64,000 nucleotides of DNA from a virus. The stretch is from positions 1 to 64,000 of IMG/VR virus record IMGVR_UViG_3300029448_000009. One strand, given 5' to 3'. Shown here one piece after another: positions 1,574-21,029 of the stretch. Positions within the stretch are counted from its first letter, which is position 1; every line of letters begins with the position of its first letter. The notes below the pieces were generated by a model that was not told where the DNA came from, ran no database searches, and saw only the letters and a list, made by a program, of their open reading frames with translations. Position numbers and translations under genes: made by a program.

Positions 1574-1957
1574 TTAATTAAATTGTTTTAATATTATTTC
1601 GTCCACTTTTGCTTGGACATCCTTTTTATTTGCTTCTAATTGAAACATTATATTTGCTGTAAAAGTTTCTTCTACATTACCATTGTTAAATATGATAATT
1701 GTTGGAACTGCTGTAATTTCAAATTCAGTTTGTAGATCCATATGTTGACCTATGTCAACTCTATATACCTCACACTCTTTTAAATTGTCTAACCATTTAA
1801 CTTCATTTACATTATTCCAACTTGCCCAAAACTCTACAACTATAATACCTCTGCTTGTTTCTTTTTCAAAATCATTTGTACCAAGAAAAGATTGTCCTTG
1901 TGCGTACGAGAAAAAGGTTAGAAATAAAAACGATATAAGTACTTTAAGTTTTTTCAT
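1574..1957 (-). CDS. Secreted thioredoxin-fold protein without redox cysteines
   Basis: This 127-aa protein starts with a signal peptide (MKKLKVLISFLFLTFFSYAQ). The mature part has the thioredoxin order: IIVVEFWASWNNVNEVKWL (about 39-56), a DIGQ strand (about 70), then the cis-proline strand ITAVPTIIIFNNG (about 84-96). In active thioredoxins the WAxW motif continues CGPC. Here it reads WASWNNVN, so both catalytic cysteines are absent, and the only visible cysteine is in KECEV. It therefore cannot be a dithiol oxidoreductase and is more likely a binding or scaffold protein in the host periplasm or envelope. Its start overlaps the stop of the upstream gene by 4 nt, implying translational coupling. 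Confidence 0.75.
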   Translation of the reverse strand: MKKLKVLISFLFLTFFSYAQGQSFLGTNDFEKETSRGIIVVEFWASWNNVNEVKWLDNLKECEVYRVDIGQHMDLQTEFEITAVPTIIIFNNGNVEETFTANIMFQLEANKKDVQAKVDEIILKQFN

Positions 1958-2298
1958 TTTTTAAGGGATTTAAATTCTTCTTTTAATTCATCTAAGTCTT
2001 CTTGAACCCTGTCAATTTTATTACGAGCCATTTGATCTTTCATATTAAACTCCATTCTTGTAGGGGGCCAAGTATTTGTAGCTGCAGGATCTCCCATATC
2101 TATTGTATAGGTTCCTGTTCCTGGTATAGGCTTTTCTAATGCTTCTTGAACTTTAACTTCAAGTTCAACAAATTTAGAGTTAATGCTAGCCATTAAACCA
2201 AAGTATGCAGAGATTACAGTAGCTACACCAACTACAATCCCTATTAAAGTTTTTACACTTATTTGAAATTTACTATCTTCTGATAATTCTTTTGCCAT
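1954..2298 (-). CDS. Small membrane-anchored coiled-coil protein
   Basis: This 114-aa protein has one strong membrane segment at about residues 14-34 (VKTLIGIVVGVATVISAYFGL). It then has a charged heptad-like stretch, a Gly/Pro-rich linker (PIPGTGTYTIDMGDP), and a C-terminal coiled coil (KIDRVQEDLDELKEEFKSLKK). One N-terminal TM followed by a coiled coil is seen in phage spanin- or holin-accessory-like proteins and in some virion proteins. No family is recognised. It is coupled to the thioredoxin-like gene by a 4-nt overlap, which hints that the two act together at the envelope. Confidence 0.55.
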   Translation of the reverse strand: MAKELSEDSKFQISVKTLIGIVVGVATVISAYFGLMASINSKFVELEVKVQEALEKPIPGTGTYTIDMGDPAATNTWPPTRMEFNMKDQMARNKIDRVQEDLDELKEEFKSLKK

Positions 2299-2708: not shown

Positions 2709-4052
2709 TTAACTTTCTATTATTTGTACTGCGTCAACACATAAATCACCTCTAAATCCTGTTGCGTTTTGACTTACAAAATATATGTAATAATCAGTGT
2801 CGTTTCTGTAGCTGTTTAAACTAATTGTGTTTTGTTGCCATACACTACTAGTTGCTGTATATCCACTAAATGTTTCATAAGCTGCTAGTTCAGTAGCGTT
2901 GCTATGATTAGAAGATGTTGCGTCATCTATATAGACGTATAAGTCTCCCATTTGAGATCCATAAGCATGAACCCAAAATTTTAAATCTAAATCATTACCA
3001 GAAGAGTCTAACATGTTTGAGCTATTGAATACAGGCATTCTAGTTACAAAAGCATACACATGTCTACTACTAGTTACCTCGGTATACATATACTTCGTTG
3101 CACTAGCATGCGATCCGTCAGAAACATCAACACCGTTATTAGGCCCAGTATTACCAGATGGCGTTGTTCCCGTATCTAAGTTCCAACCTTTAACTGTTTT
3201 ATTAGATGTCCTACCCCAATATGTTCCATCTGTAGCACTTGATCCATTTACCCAATTATTACTTGGAGACCAATCTCCTGTTGTTGTTTGTGGTGTTTCA
3301 CTTTCAAATTGATAGAACAACTGATACGGTGTTGGCTCTGTTGTATTACCAGGTTGAGCAATATTCGCTAGACTAGCTGTACCTATTCCATTTACTTTTA
3401 ATATATCAGCTGGTGGTTCACCAATTACTTTATCAGGAAATTGTTCTAAATAAGTTACTCTTAAACCTATGCCTCTAACAACAACAGCTACTGGTGTAGC
3501 ACTTATAGCTATAAGTGTAATAGCAAAACCAAAACTTGCTTGATCAGCTGGGTCCCAAGACAAACCTGATAAACTAGTTGAAGAACCTGCCATAACATCA
3601 TCTCCTAATGAATTGTTAACATATCTTTTATTTGCTCCAGTTAAAGTAAGTTCAGTGCTATCCCCATTAAGTGAACCTCCAGATGGAGTTGACAGAAAAG
3701 TTAAAGCACTAGAATATGAAGTTCCATTATATAAATACATTTGGTATGTTGCGCTTTCACTGGCTCCAGTACTACCCGCATTACCAATATTTGAATTACC
3801 ACTACCGTCAGTATCTAATCCAGCAACTAGTTCAATTCCTGTTATAACAGCACCACTAGGTATTTGTGATGAATTAAAACAATTAGTCCATAAAGTACCT
3901 TTATTCGCCGCTGTAGCAACAGCAGCTGAGGATCCTGTTGCGGTACTATGTATACGTTGAGGTTGAGACCAAGCACCATAAGTTATTCCATCTCCTATGC
4001 CTGTTCCTACAGCTGCGTTTGTGTTGGGTGCTAAAATACTAGTCGTTGCCAT
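2709..4052 (-). CDS. Fibre/adhesin-like virion protein with a C-terminal MAM-like domain
   Basis: This 447-aa protein has two parts. Residues 1-200 are a Gly/Ser/Thr-rich beta domain (YGAWSQPQRIHSTATGSSAA). Residues about 250-447 look like a MAM-type jelly roll: GDWSPSNNW...GWNLDTGTTPSGNTGP, YMYTEVTS, DLDLKFWVHAYGSQMGDLYVYID, and the closing FRGDLCVDAVQIIES strand. MAM-like domains in marine Bacteroidota proteins bind partners or glycans. In this fibre-gene run a receptor-recognition or host-surface-binding role is likely. It overlaps the next gene by 14 nt. The assignment to MAM is by pattern and needs a profile search. Confidence 0.6.
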   Translation of the reverse strand: MATTSILAPNTNAAVGTGIGDGITYGAWSQPQRIHSTATGSSAAVATAANKGTLWTNCFNSSQIPSGAVITGIELVAGLDTDGSGNSNIGNAGSTGASESATYQMYLYNGTSYSSALTFLSTPSGGSLNGDSTELTLTGANKRYVNNSLGDDVMAGSSTSLSGLSWDPADQASFGFAITLIAISATPVAVVVRGIGLRVTYLEQFPDKVIGEPPADILKVNGIGTASLANIAQPGNTTEPTPYQLFYQFESETPQTTTGDWSPSNNWVNGSSATDGTYWGRTSNKTVKGWNLDTGTTPSGNTGPNNGVDVSDGSHASATKYMYTEVTSSRHVYAFVTRMPVFNSSNMLDSSGNDLDLKFWVHAYGSQMGDLYVYIDDATSSNHSNATELAAYETFSGYTATSSVWQQNTISLNSYRNDTDYYIYFVSQNATGFRGDLCVDAVQIIES

Positions 4053-5701: not shown

Positions 5702-5986
5702 TTATAAATCTAAAAAATCTTGATAAGAATACCCTCCATTTGAAGCTCCTCCTTTTCGTTTCTTTTGTGTTTGAGGTTCATATTCTCCATATTTTTTATT
5801 TCTTGCTTTTTTAGCAGCTGCTGCCGTAGCTGCTGCAGCCGCTGCTGCTTTATTACTCGCATTTTTCTTTTTAGCCTTTTTCATAGCATTATAAGTCATT
5901 CCAGGTATTGACATATCAAACATAGTTTTTCCCATGCTTTTTAATTTTTGTCCTAATCCTTTTCTATTTTTGTTTTTATCTGGCAT
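5702..5986 (-). CDS. Lysine/alanine-rich basic protein with shared C-terminal tag (copy 1)
   Basis: This 94-aa, strongly basic protein runs MPDKNKNRKGLGQKLKSMGK at the N-terminus, then KKAKKKNASNK and an alanine-rich helix (A7-T-A4), then KKARNKKYGEYEPQTQKKRKGG. It ends GYSYQDFLDL, the same nine-residue C-terminus (YSYQDFLDL) as the otherwise different basic protein at 6006-6290. The coding 3' ends are also nearly identical in DNA. The composition suggests a DNA- or RNA-binding protein, and the shared acidic-aromatic tail suggests a common docking or packaging partner. I recognise no family. Confidence 0.6.
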   Translation of the reverse strand: MPDKNKNRKGLGQKLKSMGKTMFDMSIPGMTYNAMKKAKKKNASNKAAAAAAATAAAAKKARNKKYGEYEPQTQKKRKGGASNGGYSYQDFLDL

Positions 5987-6005: not shown

Positions 6006-6290
6006 TTATAAATCTAAAAAATCTTGGTAACTGTAACCACTATTAGCTCCTCCTTCTCTATACTTACTTTGTTTAACCTTTTTATTTTTAGAAGTTGAAC
6101 TAATACTCATATTTACGAACTTTTTCTTTACTGTGCCATCCTTATTATATTTTGTTTTTCCTGTTGTAGAACTTAATTGCTTATCAGCACCTCTTGATAC
6201 TCTTTTTTTGACTGTTCCATCCTTACGATATTTTATTTTTATTTGACTACCATCGCCTCTTGTTCTTTTACTAACATTTTTTCTTTCCAT
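6006..6290 (-). CDS. Basic protein with internal KDGTVKK repeats and shared C-terminal tag (copy 2)
   Basis: This 94-aa, very basic protein carries two copies of a motif, KYRKDGTVKKRV (about 20-31) and KYNKDGTVKKKF (about 47-58), joined by a Ser/Thr-rich linker. It ends GGANSGYSYQDFLDL, matching the C-terminus of the protein at 5702-5986. Equal length (94 aa) and the same tail, with different bodies, suggest diverged paralogues or two cargo proteins addressed to the same place. Likely roles are genome condensation or an ejected internal protein. These are inferences from composition only. Confidence 0.6.
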   Translation of the reverse strand: MERKNVSKRTRGDGSQIKIKYRKDGTVKKRVSRGADKQLSSTTGKTKYNKDGTVKKKFVNMSISSTSKNKKVKQSKYREGGANSGYSYQDFLDL

Positions 6291-6300
6291 GTTTTTAATT

Positions 6301-7011
6301 TTATTTTAATTTATATTTAATTTTACCATCTTCTATATATAAACCTTCACGCTCTTTTATAGCCTGTCCGTTTAAATTATATAGTATATTGTTGGATTTA
6401 GATTTATTTATTAATTCATCTATAGACGAGTTACAAGGTTGCCCTGTATCACAATCTATGTATTCTGTAACATATTCTATAAACTCTACATATTCTATTT
6501 CTACAATTGTATCGTAAACAAATACGTCAACATATTCAATAACATCTACAAAAAGAGTATCTAAGATATCTTCGTAAATAGTTACTGTGTCTGTTATATA
6601 AATGTATTCTGGAACAAACACTTCTACTTCTACAGTGTCTATTACAATGTTGTATATATATTCTGTATTAACTATAGTATCAAATATTGTTTCATATATA
6701 GTTTCATATTCTATTTCATATATTGTATCACACTCTTCTATAATAGGAGGTAAACAATCTAATGGTGATGTTGGCTCTGCATCTGCTTCATCTGACCCAT
6801 CTGCACAATCTTCCCATCCATCATTAAGATAAAATAGATCTGGACCATTAGGTACACATCCATCAGGTGAATATTGTGTCCAGTTAGCTGGATCATCTCC
6901 ACAATAAAATCCATTTTGTTCAGCGCACTGTAAACATAGTTGTTGAAAGTCAAATTGCGAATAAGCAAACGAGCTTATAAATGCAAATAATATAATAAAG
7001 AGTTTTTTCAT
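6301..7011 (-). CDS. Secreted protein: signal peptide, LDLa-like acidic box, Tyr/Thr/acidic repeats, T9SS-like tail
   Basis: This 236-aa protein starts with a clear signal peptide (MKKLFIILFAFISSFAYSQ). Residues about 25-80 have six cysteines and the acidic box DGWEDCADGSDE, the calcium-binding core of LDL-receptor class A modules. Residues about 95-190 are a low-complexity beta-prone run of short Y/T/I/V/E/D units (IYEIEYETIYETIFDTIV type). The end reads ILYNLNGQAIK followed by GLYIEDGKIKYKLK, resembling the last half of a Bacteroidota type IX secretion (type A) sorting domain. Its predicted route is the Sec system, then the host T9SS to the cell surface. The upstream gene encodes an outer-membrane barrel. 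A truncated sorting domain is also possible. Confidence 0.65.
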   Translation of the reverse strand: MKKLFIILFAFISSFAYSQFDFQQLCLQCAEQNGFYCGDDPANWTQYSPDGCVPNGPDLFYLNDGWEDCADGSDEADAEPTSPLDCLPPIIEECDTIYEIEYETIYETIFDTIVNTEYIYNIVIDTVEVEVFVPEYIYITDTVTIYEDILDTLFVDVIEYVDVFVYDTIVEIEYVEFIEYVTEYIDCDTGQPCNSSIDELINKSKSNNILYNLNGQAIKEREGLYIEDGKIKYKLK

Positions 7012-7013
7012 AA

Positions 7014-8066
7014 TTAAAAGAATAAATAGTTAAATCCAAATTTTACTTCATATACTGGTTTTTCCCAGTACTTCATATGTGTCCCCTCTATAAATAATCC
7101 TAAATTTTTTGTTATCCTTTGTCCAAATACTATTCCCGCATCCCATTCTAACCAATCTAGATCTTGTGTACCGTACTCAAAAGAGTAATCATCTAAGCCA
7201 TAATGATACGGTAAACAATTAACCCAAGCATGTAACCAAAACTTAGGTGTATATTTATAATATGCAATTCCTATTACTGCACTTAATTCTTTTTGTATTC
7301 CTAATTTATCTAACTCTCTTTCATTAAAACGTGCAACTGCATCTCCAAAGTAGTGGTTAAAGAACTCATCATTACTTGTTGCTACAAGAGTAGAATCACC
7401 TTCTGATACATCATACCAGTTATTATTAACATAAAATCCTTGAATCCATTGTTCTGGAGCATATCCAAAGTCCTCTGCTAATTGTTGAAAGGATGACTCG
7501 CCAGGTACCCAAAAGTCCCTAATAGGTACAAAGCCATAAGCAGGATGAGCTCTAACCACCGCTCCTACTGTAAAATCCCAGTTTCCTGAGTTTATTCTAT
7601 ATCTTGTATCAAAAGAAGTAAATTGTAAATTTACTCGCTGATTGTTTTTATATTGTGCTTTGGTTACACATTTAGTTCCTAAATATCTAATCCAAAAATT
7701 TTGATCAGTAAATTTTTCACCACGATTCCGTATAAAAGAATAATTAAAAAGATACTCCCAGCCATTAGCATTACCAATAGTAACGTTGTCTGAAACAGCT
7801 CTTTCAGTACCATAGTACCATGTTTTAACTTTATATTCATAATCAAATCTTGCTATTTTACGAATTCCTACGGTTAAATTATAATCATAAGGATTAATAT
7901 CTGTAACATCTTGATAACCTTTATCTATAGCTACATAATCTTCTCTTTCAGTAAAAGAGGTATTCGTGCTCATAGATGTGTAGAATGTAGAGTATTTAAA
8001 AAAATCTTCTATTTGACCGTTACATACACTGCTTATAAAGATAAGCAAAATTATTATATTTTTCAT
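7014..8066 (-). CDS. Phage-encoded outer-membrane beta-barrel protein
   Basis: This 350-aa protein has a signal peptide (MKNIIILLIFISSVCNGQ). It then has alternating amphipathic strands rich in Y, F and W (YNLTVGIRKIARFDYEYKV, WEYLFNYSFI, LGLFIEGTHMKYW) and ends VKFGFNYLFF. A C-terminal phenylalanine after alternating hydrophobics is the classic outer-membrane insertion signal. Its start overlaps the stop of the lectin-like gene by 1 nt. Host expression from a virion-type operon suggests a function in the infected cell, such as receptor masking or superinfection exclusion. No specific family is recognised. Confidence 0.7.
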   Translation of the reverse strand: MKNIIILLIFISSVCNGQIEDFFKYSTFYTSMSTNTSFTEREDYVAIDKGYQDVTDINPYDYNLTVGIRKIARFDYEYKVKTWYYGTERAVSDNVTIGNANGWEYLFNYSFIRNRGEKFTDQNFWIRYLGTKCVTKAQYKNNQRVNLQFTSFDTRYRINSGNWDFTVGAVVRAHPAYGFVPIRDFWVPGESSFQQLAEDFGYAPEQWIQGFYVNNNWYDVSEGDSTLVATSNDEFFNHYFGDAVARFNERELDKLGIQKELSAVIGIAYYKYTPKFWLHAWVNCLPYHYGLDDYSFEYGTQDLDWLEWDAGIVFGQRITKNLGLFIEGTHMKYWEKPVYEVKFGFNYLFF

Positions 8067-19574: not shown

Positions 19575-21029
19575 CTAGGACGCTGTACACGTAATATCTA
19601 GAGAAGTATCAAATCTTTTCAAAATGATACCAGCTGTTTTTAACATGTGAACAGAAGCACCATCTACATCAGATGCTCTTGCACTTCCTCCGTCAAAACC
19701 TCTAGGCACTACACTACCAGCAACACACCATCTCATCATTTCTCTTCCTTTTTTAGAAAGCATTTGAAGGTTTGCTTGACCGTCATAATTAGACTGATCA
19801 ACAAATACCATTCTGTATGATTCAAGTGAGTAACCAGTTACAGGGTGTTTACCAGCTGCTTGAGCAACAGGACCATGATCAAATAAAGGTAGTTTAACTA
19901 CATTTACTGAATGTCCGTCTACGTGCTCGTAAGAAGTAAAGTACCCAGAAAGTCCTAATGATCTACCTGAACCAGTGATGAACCTATTCTCTCCACCAAC
20001 TTTCCAAGAGCCTGCAGCTGTTGTAAAGTGATTTTTAAGAGCTTCATCAAATTCACGCATACCACCAGTACCTGTATAAAGCGTTACTTGTTTTTTGTTA
20101 GCATCAGTCATACCATAGAATAAATCACCAATAATGTTTTTGATTTTAGTCTCTGTCATTGTAGAGTAAGAATCTTTATTAACGATTTGTTCAAGTAATC
20201 CTGGACCAACAATTACTGGCTGACCATTTTCATCTTTCATGAAAGTGTGTCCGTCAGAATTATATGTTTTTTGTCCGTACCAGTAGAACATCTCACACTC
20301 TTCTTTAAAGTTAAGCATGTGTTGATATTCTTCATAATCCATCCATAATTTTGTAGTCGCTCCTCCTTTAGTAGGTAATCCAAACTCAACTACATAATCT
20401 CGCGCGTGACCAGACATGTGATAAGATTTTCTTACTGTACCAATTTTGTTACGAACTAAAGCTGGAGTTTCCCAGTTTGAAGCGTTTCCTCTTGAGAAAT
20501 CAACTCCTACTGGTGCATACAATTGAGCCCAAAGATCACCTGCAGTAAATCCTGAAGATAATGTTGCACTTGTAGATGGGTTAACTAATTGTAATGTATA
20601 TTTCCAATTTCCTGTTCCTGCTGCTGCTTCTGGTTCTTTCATAATACGTGCTAATTCTCCTGCGGAGTTTACTAGTACGTAAGGAAATACAAACCATTTG
20701 TCAGGAAATTCTAATGTGAAGGTCCCTCCTGCTTGACCTAAGTTTGCACCACTATTTGTCGTTGCTACTGGTCGTGTCTTTCTCTTGTGAGTAGATACAC
20801 GATATTCATATTCCAATCTATCCATTGACTTAACGTTTCCAACCCCTTCCGTCAAGAATGATAGTGGGAATCTTTTATCGTCTTTACCAGCCAAATGTGT
20901 GATAATCGGAGATAATTCAGTAGGCTTTGACATAAGGGCGTTCGCTAGACTGTTCATATCAGTCATTTGAGAATCATTATAAAACGTTTTTACAACGCTA
21001 ATGTTCTTACCTTGTTGTGACATTGCCAT
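19575..21029 (-). CDS. Major capsid protein (HK97 fold, crAss-like)
   Basis: This 484-aa protein starts MAMSQQGKNISVVKTFYND and continues with ALMSKPTELSPIITHLAGKDDKRFPLSFLTEG, then MDRLEYEYRVSTHKRKTRPVA. Length, absence of a signal peptide, position between a scaffold-like gene and the connector gene, and the N-terminal and central motifs (GTFTLEFPDKWFVFPYVL, EECEMFYWYG) agree with crAss-like major capsid proteins. Codons are GC-richer than those of neighbours, as expected for a highly expressed gene. A cluster of hairpins follows it. Confidence 0.8.
   Translation of the reverse strand: MAMSQQGKNISVVKTFYNDSQMTDMNSLANALMSKPTELSPIITHLAGKDDKRFPLSFLTEGVGNVKSMDRLEYEYRVSTHKRKTRPVATTNSGANLGQAGGTFTLEFPDKWFVFPYVLVNSAGELARIMKEPEAAAGTGNWKYTLQLVNPSTSATLSSGFTAGDLWAQLYAPVGVDFSRGNASNWETPALVRNKIGTVRKSYHMSGHARDYVVEFGLPTKGGATTKLWMDYEEYQHMLNFKEECEMFYWYGQKTYNSDGHTFMKDENGQPVIVGPGLLEQIVNKDSYSTMTETKIKNIIGDLFYGMTDANKKQVTLYTGTGGMREFDEALKNHFTTAAGSWKVGGENRFITGSGRSLGLSGYFTSYEHVDGHSVNVVKLPLFDHGPVAQAAGKHPVTGYSLESYRMVFVDQSNYDGQANLQMLSKKGREMMRWCVAGSVVPRGFDGGSARASDVDGASVHMLKTAGIILKRFDTSLDITCTAS

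Follow-up and report, generated by a model that had tools for sequence, protein, structure and literature searches.

The DNA window analysed here is a stretch of 64,000 nucleotides from the IMG/VR virus record IMGVR_UViG_3300029448_000009, which has 85,154 bases in all. On its minus strand, the open reading frame list of the window gives a gene with bounds of exactly 6301..7011, encoding 236 aa plus stop. This cargo gene, also supported by viral relatives and by purifying selection, specifies a signal peptide, an LDLa-like module, a stalk and a sorting-like tail. An earlier note had claimed the joint presence in this gene of a signal peptide, an acidic box, a stretch of about 100 acidic and beta-branched residues (here 94-193) and a C-terminus like that of a sorting domain, and all of them were found. 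It had missed a conserved partner, a putative outer-membrane beta-barrel protein with a signal peptide (7014..8066, minus strand; 350 aa, ending FGFNYLFF), assigned from AF2, Foldseek and locus conservation. In the window, the stop of the barrel gene precedes the cargo ATG by 2 bases, and a relative of the barrel is found directly or shortly upstream of the cargo gene in 81/84 loci.

The phage that carries these genes is crAss-like, since its major capsid protein (19575-21029) matches the Pfam family Crass_capsid (PF23898) at 1.8e-78. A recognisable crAss capsid is present in 10 of the 25 cassette-carrier records tested, spread over clearly divergent groups; the carriers without one may be fragments or other phages. 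The annotated phage records contain no relative of the 236-aa protein or of the barrel, and that collection therefore offers no cultured system. The PADLOC defence models gave no match. Several other genes of this phage, all on the minus strand, deserve mention. With 32.4 bits against a Pfam cut-off of 26.4, a MAM domain is recognised in the 447-aa protein encoded at 2709-4052, which gives this phage a second adhesion domain of animal type. The likely tail protein of 1313 aa encoded at 11307-15248 matches the SprB repeat (PF13573, 5.8e-7), a repeat of the flavobacterial gliding adhesin. Two small basic proteins (5702-5986 and 6006-6290), otherwise different, have near-identical ends, GGASNGGYSYQDFLDL and GGANSGYSYQDFLDL, which resemble a docking or packaging tag.

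Relatives of the 236-aa protein in viral contigs number 29 with a single-protein query and at least 209 with an alignment query, 80 of these 209 being kept from the latter scan. The order of the parts is identical across all viral relatives. Among 52 diverse members of the family, 37 columns are invariant, including 9 cysteines, and all 85 aligned proteins (85/85) have nine cysteines beyond residue 15. Pooled dN/dS values are 0.29 for the signal peptide, 0.12 for the module, 0.10 for the stalk and 0.21 for the tail. The protein is thus under purifying selection in every segment, the tail included, and nothing hints at an arms race. Given the 209 relatives, the nine cysteines and these low values everywhere, its architecture is not due to chance.

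The signal peptide covers residues 1-18 (6958..7011, minus strand), with cleavage expected before Gln19 according to the Bacteroidetes Q-rule. A hydrophobic stretch followed by a small residue and Gln was found, by pattern, in 85/85 relatives. The Q-rule is a feature of Bacteroidetes signal peptidase I substrates (PMC5837995), and its occurrence throughout the family argues for a genuine signal peptide and for a Bacteroidota host. No lipobox was seen in the signal peptide. The sequence gives good support to the predicted export of the protein into the periplasm. When all 85 kb of the record were scanned by pattern, only three proteins with credible signal peptides emerged, encoded at 6301-7011, 7014-8066 and 1574-1957. 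These are the three cassette proteins; all of them have Q-rule signal peptides, which occur in no other credible ORF of the record, so that the recognisable phage secretome is the cassette. The third one (1574..1957, minus strand) is a putatively exported protein with a thioredoxin fold (Pfam Thioredoxin, 6e-8) that lacks CxxC (WASWNN). It accompanies the cargo gene in 79/84 loci, CxxC being found in 0/79, and is possibly a redox-dead chaperone or binding protein. In some relatives, a further small signal-peptide protein (MKKIFFIALMLTGQLFAQIESGLYYS...) is encoded several kb from the cassette and on the opposite strand (L025 15779-16195 and L069 16075-16509, both minus).

The cysteine-rich LDLa-like module (residues 19-93; 6733..6957, minus strand) was delimited by comparison of the module profile A3 with a PDB set and by Pfam LDLa matches in relatives. 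It includes a motif resembling a calcium box, DGWEDCADGSDE (residues 64-75; 6787..6822, minus strand). In the 52 diverse relatives, D64, W66, D68, C69, D74 and E75 are invariant and G65 and D71 nearly so; the acidic calcium box D-G-x-x-D-C-x-D-x-S-D-E of LDLa was thus found in this set. The LDLa reading put forward in the earlier note is upheld by matches of profile A3, which includes two bacterial (Crocinitomicaceae) copies, to LDLR, VLDLR (4e-5) and LRP chains (LRP1, 1e-4; megalin, 3e-10 over many repeats). The match to the LDLR-family chains spans the second half of the module, calcium box included. The profile check suggested for this reading gave a divided answer: Pfam LDLa matches 39 of the 52 relatives (best 0.0017), and a bacterial relative passes the cut-off, yet the window protein scores 9.6 bits, under the cut-off of 24.1. 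Besides the box, the module shares its surrounding cysteines with LDL receptor class A (PF00057), whereas Asn replaces canonical cysteine IV (WxC) and an extra CxxC is present at the N-terminus. Six module cysteines are invariant but, with Asn at position IV, they are not the canonical six that pair I-III, II-V, IV-VI in LDLa. The LDLa module is genuine, though incomplete.

In 84,980 species genomes scanned, a single bacterial relative turned up, in a Crocinitomicaceae MAG. This chromosomal protein of 1138 aa (L031, 9956-13372) has two module copies after a signal peptide, whose identity to the module of the 236-aa protein is 65 and 68%. Its Pfam matches to LDLa (26.7 bits, cut-off 24.1), PKD, Kazal and Por_Secre_tail (36.1, cut-off 27) all exceed their thresholds. 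Since it passes the last of these thresholds, the module occurs in a genuine T9SS cargo. The module is rare in hosts (1/399 genomes of the order). Its combination of two LDLa-like modules with Kazal-type inhibitor and PKD domains is more familiar from animals.

The stalk (residues 94-193; 6433..6732, minus strand) is rich in D, E, T, I, V and Y and is bracketed by Cys94 and Cys187/Cys193, which are invariant. The motif CDTGQPC lies between the acidic stretch and the 43-residue tail. Stalk length among relatives ranges from 48 to 176 aa and is even in 22 of the 26 distinct lengths; the AF2 pLDDT is about 25. A simple alternating amphipathic strand was considered and rejected, since hydrophobicity shows a negative correlation at lag 2 (-0.30) and hydrophobic residues, like polar ones, come in pairs. 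The nine conserved cysteines of the protein imply that one is unpaired or intermolecular, and disulfide-linked oligomers are possible.

The sorting-like tail (residues 194-236, 43 aa; 6304..6432, minus strand), which ends in GLYIEDGKIKYKLK, was studied with profiles A2/A4, hhalign and AF2. The AF2 model, with a pLDDT of about 71-76 over most of the tail and an overall pTM of 0.29, has one helix and three short strands: helix, strand and a final hairpin (224-227, 230-233). This C-terminal beta-hairpin (residues 224-236; 6304..6342, minus strand) occupies a position equivalent to motifs D/E of type A domains. Its K-rich end is found in most, not all, relatives, some of them ending 1-2 residues short or without basic residues (e.g., ...GKIYYNE). 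The likeness to a type A sorting domain noticed earlier does exist, YxLxGQ and the final hairpin resembling conserved motifs at the C-terminus of a protein with a signal peptide, but the searches intended to verify it failed: TIGR04183, TIGR04131 and PF18962 do not match the window C-terminus even at E=10, and no relative is over the cut-off of TIGR04183 or PF18962. Unlike type A domains, the tail does not begin with YPNP and has no predicted seven-strand Ig-like sandwich, and its 43 aa fall short of their about 67-88. Neither TIGR04183 nor PF18962 recognises it and known sorting domains are longer, which rules out a type A label. By the defining features of this family it falls outside, yet it plausibly works like a type A domain. 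In P. gingivalis HBP35, the last 22 residues, i.e., the final hairpin, suffice for export of GFP (PMC4804311; PMC10202324), whereas the full cleaved P. gingivalis domains measure 67-88 aa and a 2024 study of RgpB considered the Ig fold to be essential (PMC11285876). The phage tail keeps the hairpin region that the published fusions found enough for export.

Comparison of phage tails with Crocinitomicaceae type A domains by hhalign gave a score of 18.6, against 8.2 +/- 1.7 (maximum 12.7) for column-shuffled domains; with column-shuffled tails, 1/200 reaches 18.6. The alignment pairs YNLNGQAI of the phage tail with YDxxGRxV of type A. The best host match of the tail profile (7e-6) is a signal-peptide protein ending in MYDLLGRELKEAPFRQLYIQNGKKLFRIE. 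Eight proteins of one genome of the same class (L177-L184, genome G985; best 2.4e-5) also match the profile. All of them start with signal peptides, reach their C-terminus 3-8 residues past the tail match and mostly end in a GIYIxNGKK-like motif. One gives a sub-cut-off TIGR04183 match (16.5 bits, E=0.006) and so links the two tail types. As only this one of the eight gives even such a match, TIGR04183 misses the GIYIxNGKK type. Many of the remaining matches are ordinary type A domains, matched at their YDLxGR motif, the phage profile thus recovering genuine type A members. The best PDB match of the tail (0.0056) is the C-terminus of the secreted endo-arabinanase 4kca, IYDLSGRLVTTPLQKGIYIRNGKK. 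The secreted Bacteroidota C-termini found with the tail profile follow the pattern YxLxG...GIYIxNGKK.

The E-values of the tail profile are modest. A column-shuffled control profile gave equally many weak matches, with a sorting domain in 1/17 (ORFs of at least 100 aa). Host matches with E between 0.01 and 0.1 were therefore not counted singly, and only their position and kind were compared. SprA being present in 191/198 genomes of the class sampled, co-occurrence of the tail with T9SS genomes is uninformative and was dropped as evidence. Among the best 80 matches, no phage protein has the tail with another N-terminus.

The use of the host T9SS by this phage, as the earlier note proposed, is plausible: the short tails of secreted proteins, the recovery of type A domains, the Q-rule and the module in a T9SS cargo all speak for it, whereas no curated profile matches and the tail is not long enough for the known Ig-like domain. 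The whole could be explained by a phage-made, T9SS-dependent surface protein of the infected Bacteroidota host that, with the barrel, would alter the surface of the doomed cell, an account with about an even chance of being right. Signal peptidase I very probably exports the 236-aa protein to the periplasm. The short tail, as a compact type A relative keeping the last hairpin, would be taken across the outer membrane by the host T9SS. The LDLa-like tip would then be displayed at the cell exterior on its stalk, probably together with the barrel or close to it, an association suggested by gene order and by analogy with PorP/SprF and their type B cargo. In those pairs (PMC10202324), an outer-membrane barrel gene also adjoins a surface-protein gene, whereas the phage barrel has no PorP/SprF match and the cargo no type B domain (TIGR04131). 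The barrel was considered as a PorP/SprF protein and this was rejected, no match being found in Pfam/NCBIfam for the window barrel or in Pfam for 42 relatives.

As to the purpose, an endolysin-like gene lies near the cassette in the window (phrog_33083, 3e-16) and an M15 endolysin beside it in L081 and L086, and from these positions expression is probably late. Since the cargo gene sits among late structural and lysis genes, a change of the cell surface is the likeliest purpose. One guess is that a receptor would be masked or occupied, so that released progeny and rival phages would not adsorb to the doomed cell or its debris, which is consistent with late expression, a surface location and a binding-type module. 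Because the gene for this putatively exported LDLa/stalk/tag protein is nearly always beside that of the barrel, a remodelling of the infected cell's surface by the phage is probable.

The strongest alternative, itself unlikely, is that the protein is kept back, in the outer membrane or at the periplasmic side, and participates in late envelope disruption with the barrel, a TM/coil protein and the inactive thioredoxin fold, its tail serving for folding or anchoring rather than for export. The endolysin genes just mentioned fit this possibility, as do two conserved neighbours: a small protein with a TM segment and a coiled-coil-like region (1954..2298, minus strand; 73/84 loci), which has no match in Pfam and looks holin- or spanin-like by eye only, and a two-TM small protein. 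However, the 236-aa protein lacks spanin-like anchors (no lipobox, no C-terminal TM), its tail is like the C-termini of secreted proteins and its LDLa tip has no obvious lytic role.

It is also rather improbable that surface delivery of the protein occurs via the phage's own barrel or together with it, the host T9SS not being needed. The barrel is predicted as such by AF2 (pLDDT 74.5, pTM 0.71), its gene is upstream in nearly all loci, and FapF and autotransporter barrels are among its many Foldseek matches to porins and other outer-membrane barrels. These matches are, however, generic (TM about 0.3, about 8% identity), they point neither to a secretion-barrel family nor to PorP/SprF, no family of Pfam or NCBIfam matches the barrel, and the similarity of the tail would be left unexplained. 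Finally, convergence or chance on a short hairpin, in a soluble periplasmic or outer-membrane-associated factor with another role, would account for the failure of curated profiles and for weak matches as frequent with a shuffled profile, but it is very improbable in view of E-values of 7e-6 to 3e-3 at the extreme C-termini of signal-peptide proteins, of an hhalign score that column-shuffled type A domains never attained and column-shuffled tails attained once in 200, and of purifying selection on the tail.

The earlier note was wrong in stating that no such phage function had been described. A 2020 paper on Cryophage (PMC7468147) described phage genes whose products have T9SS type A sorting domains, and T9SS sorting signals were noted in 2019 in crAss-like BACON contigs (PMC6949934), so that the principle of phage-encoded T9SS cargo was already known. 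What those genes encode is variable (enzymes, PA14 or BACON proteins) and carries recognised sorting domains, whereas the LDLa-stalk protein of 6301-7011 is conserved, ends in a short tail of a kind not described before and has a barrel as its partner. What is new is this conserved protein embedded in a cassette, its short tail outside current models and its pairing with an outer-membrane barrel.

More generally, we tentatively propose, at somewhat less than even confidence, that in uncultured crAss-like and other phages a widespread cassette would rebuild the surface of infected Bacteroidota with a barrel and a T9SS-exported, LDLa-tipped stalk protein, whose tail would belong to a short, so far unmodelled class of sorting signals common to phage and host. 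By these results an LDLa-type module, best known from animals, also belongs to a phage, as well as to a bacterial protein that has a T9SS sorting domain. If the proposal is true, the tail would point to a class of short sorting signals that current annotation models overlook in phage proteomes as well as in those of hosts. Uncultured phages that infect an ecologically important phylum would redecorate cells via a phylum-specific secretion machine of the host, and would do so with a conserved protein, not an optional enzyme. This would provide an account, open to testing, of the way in which these phages control re-adsorption or superinfection.
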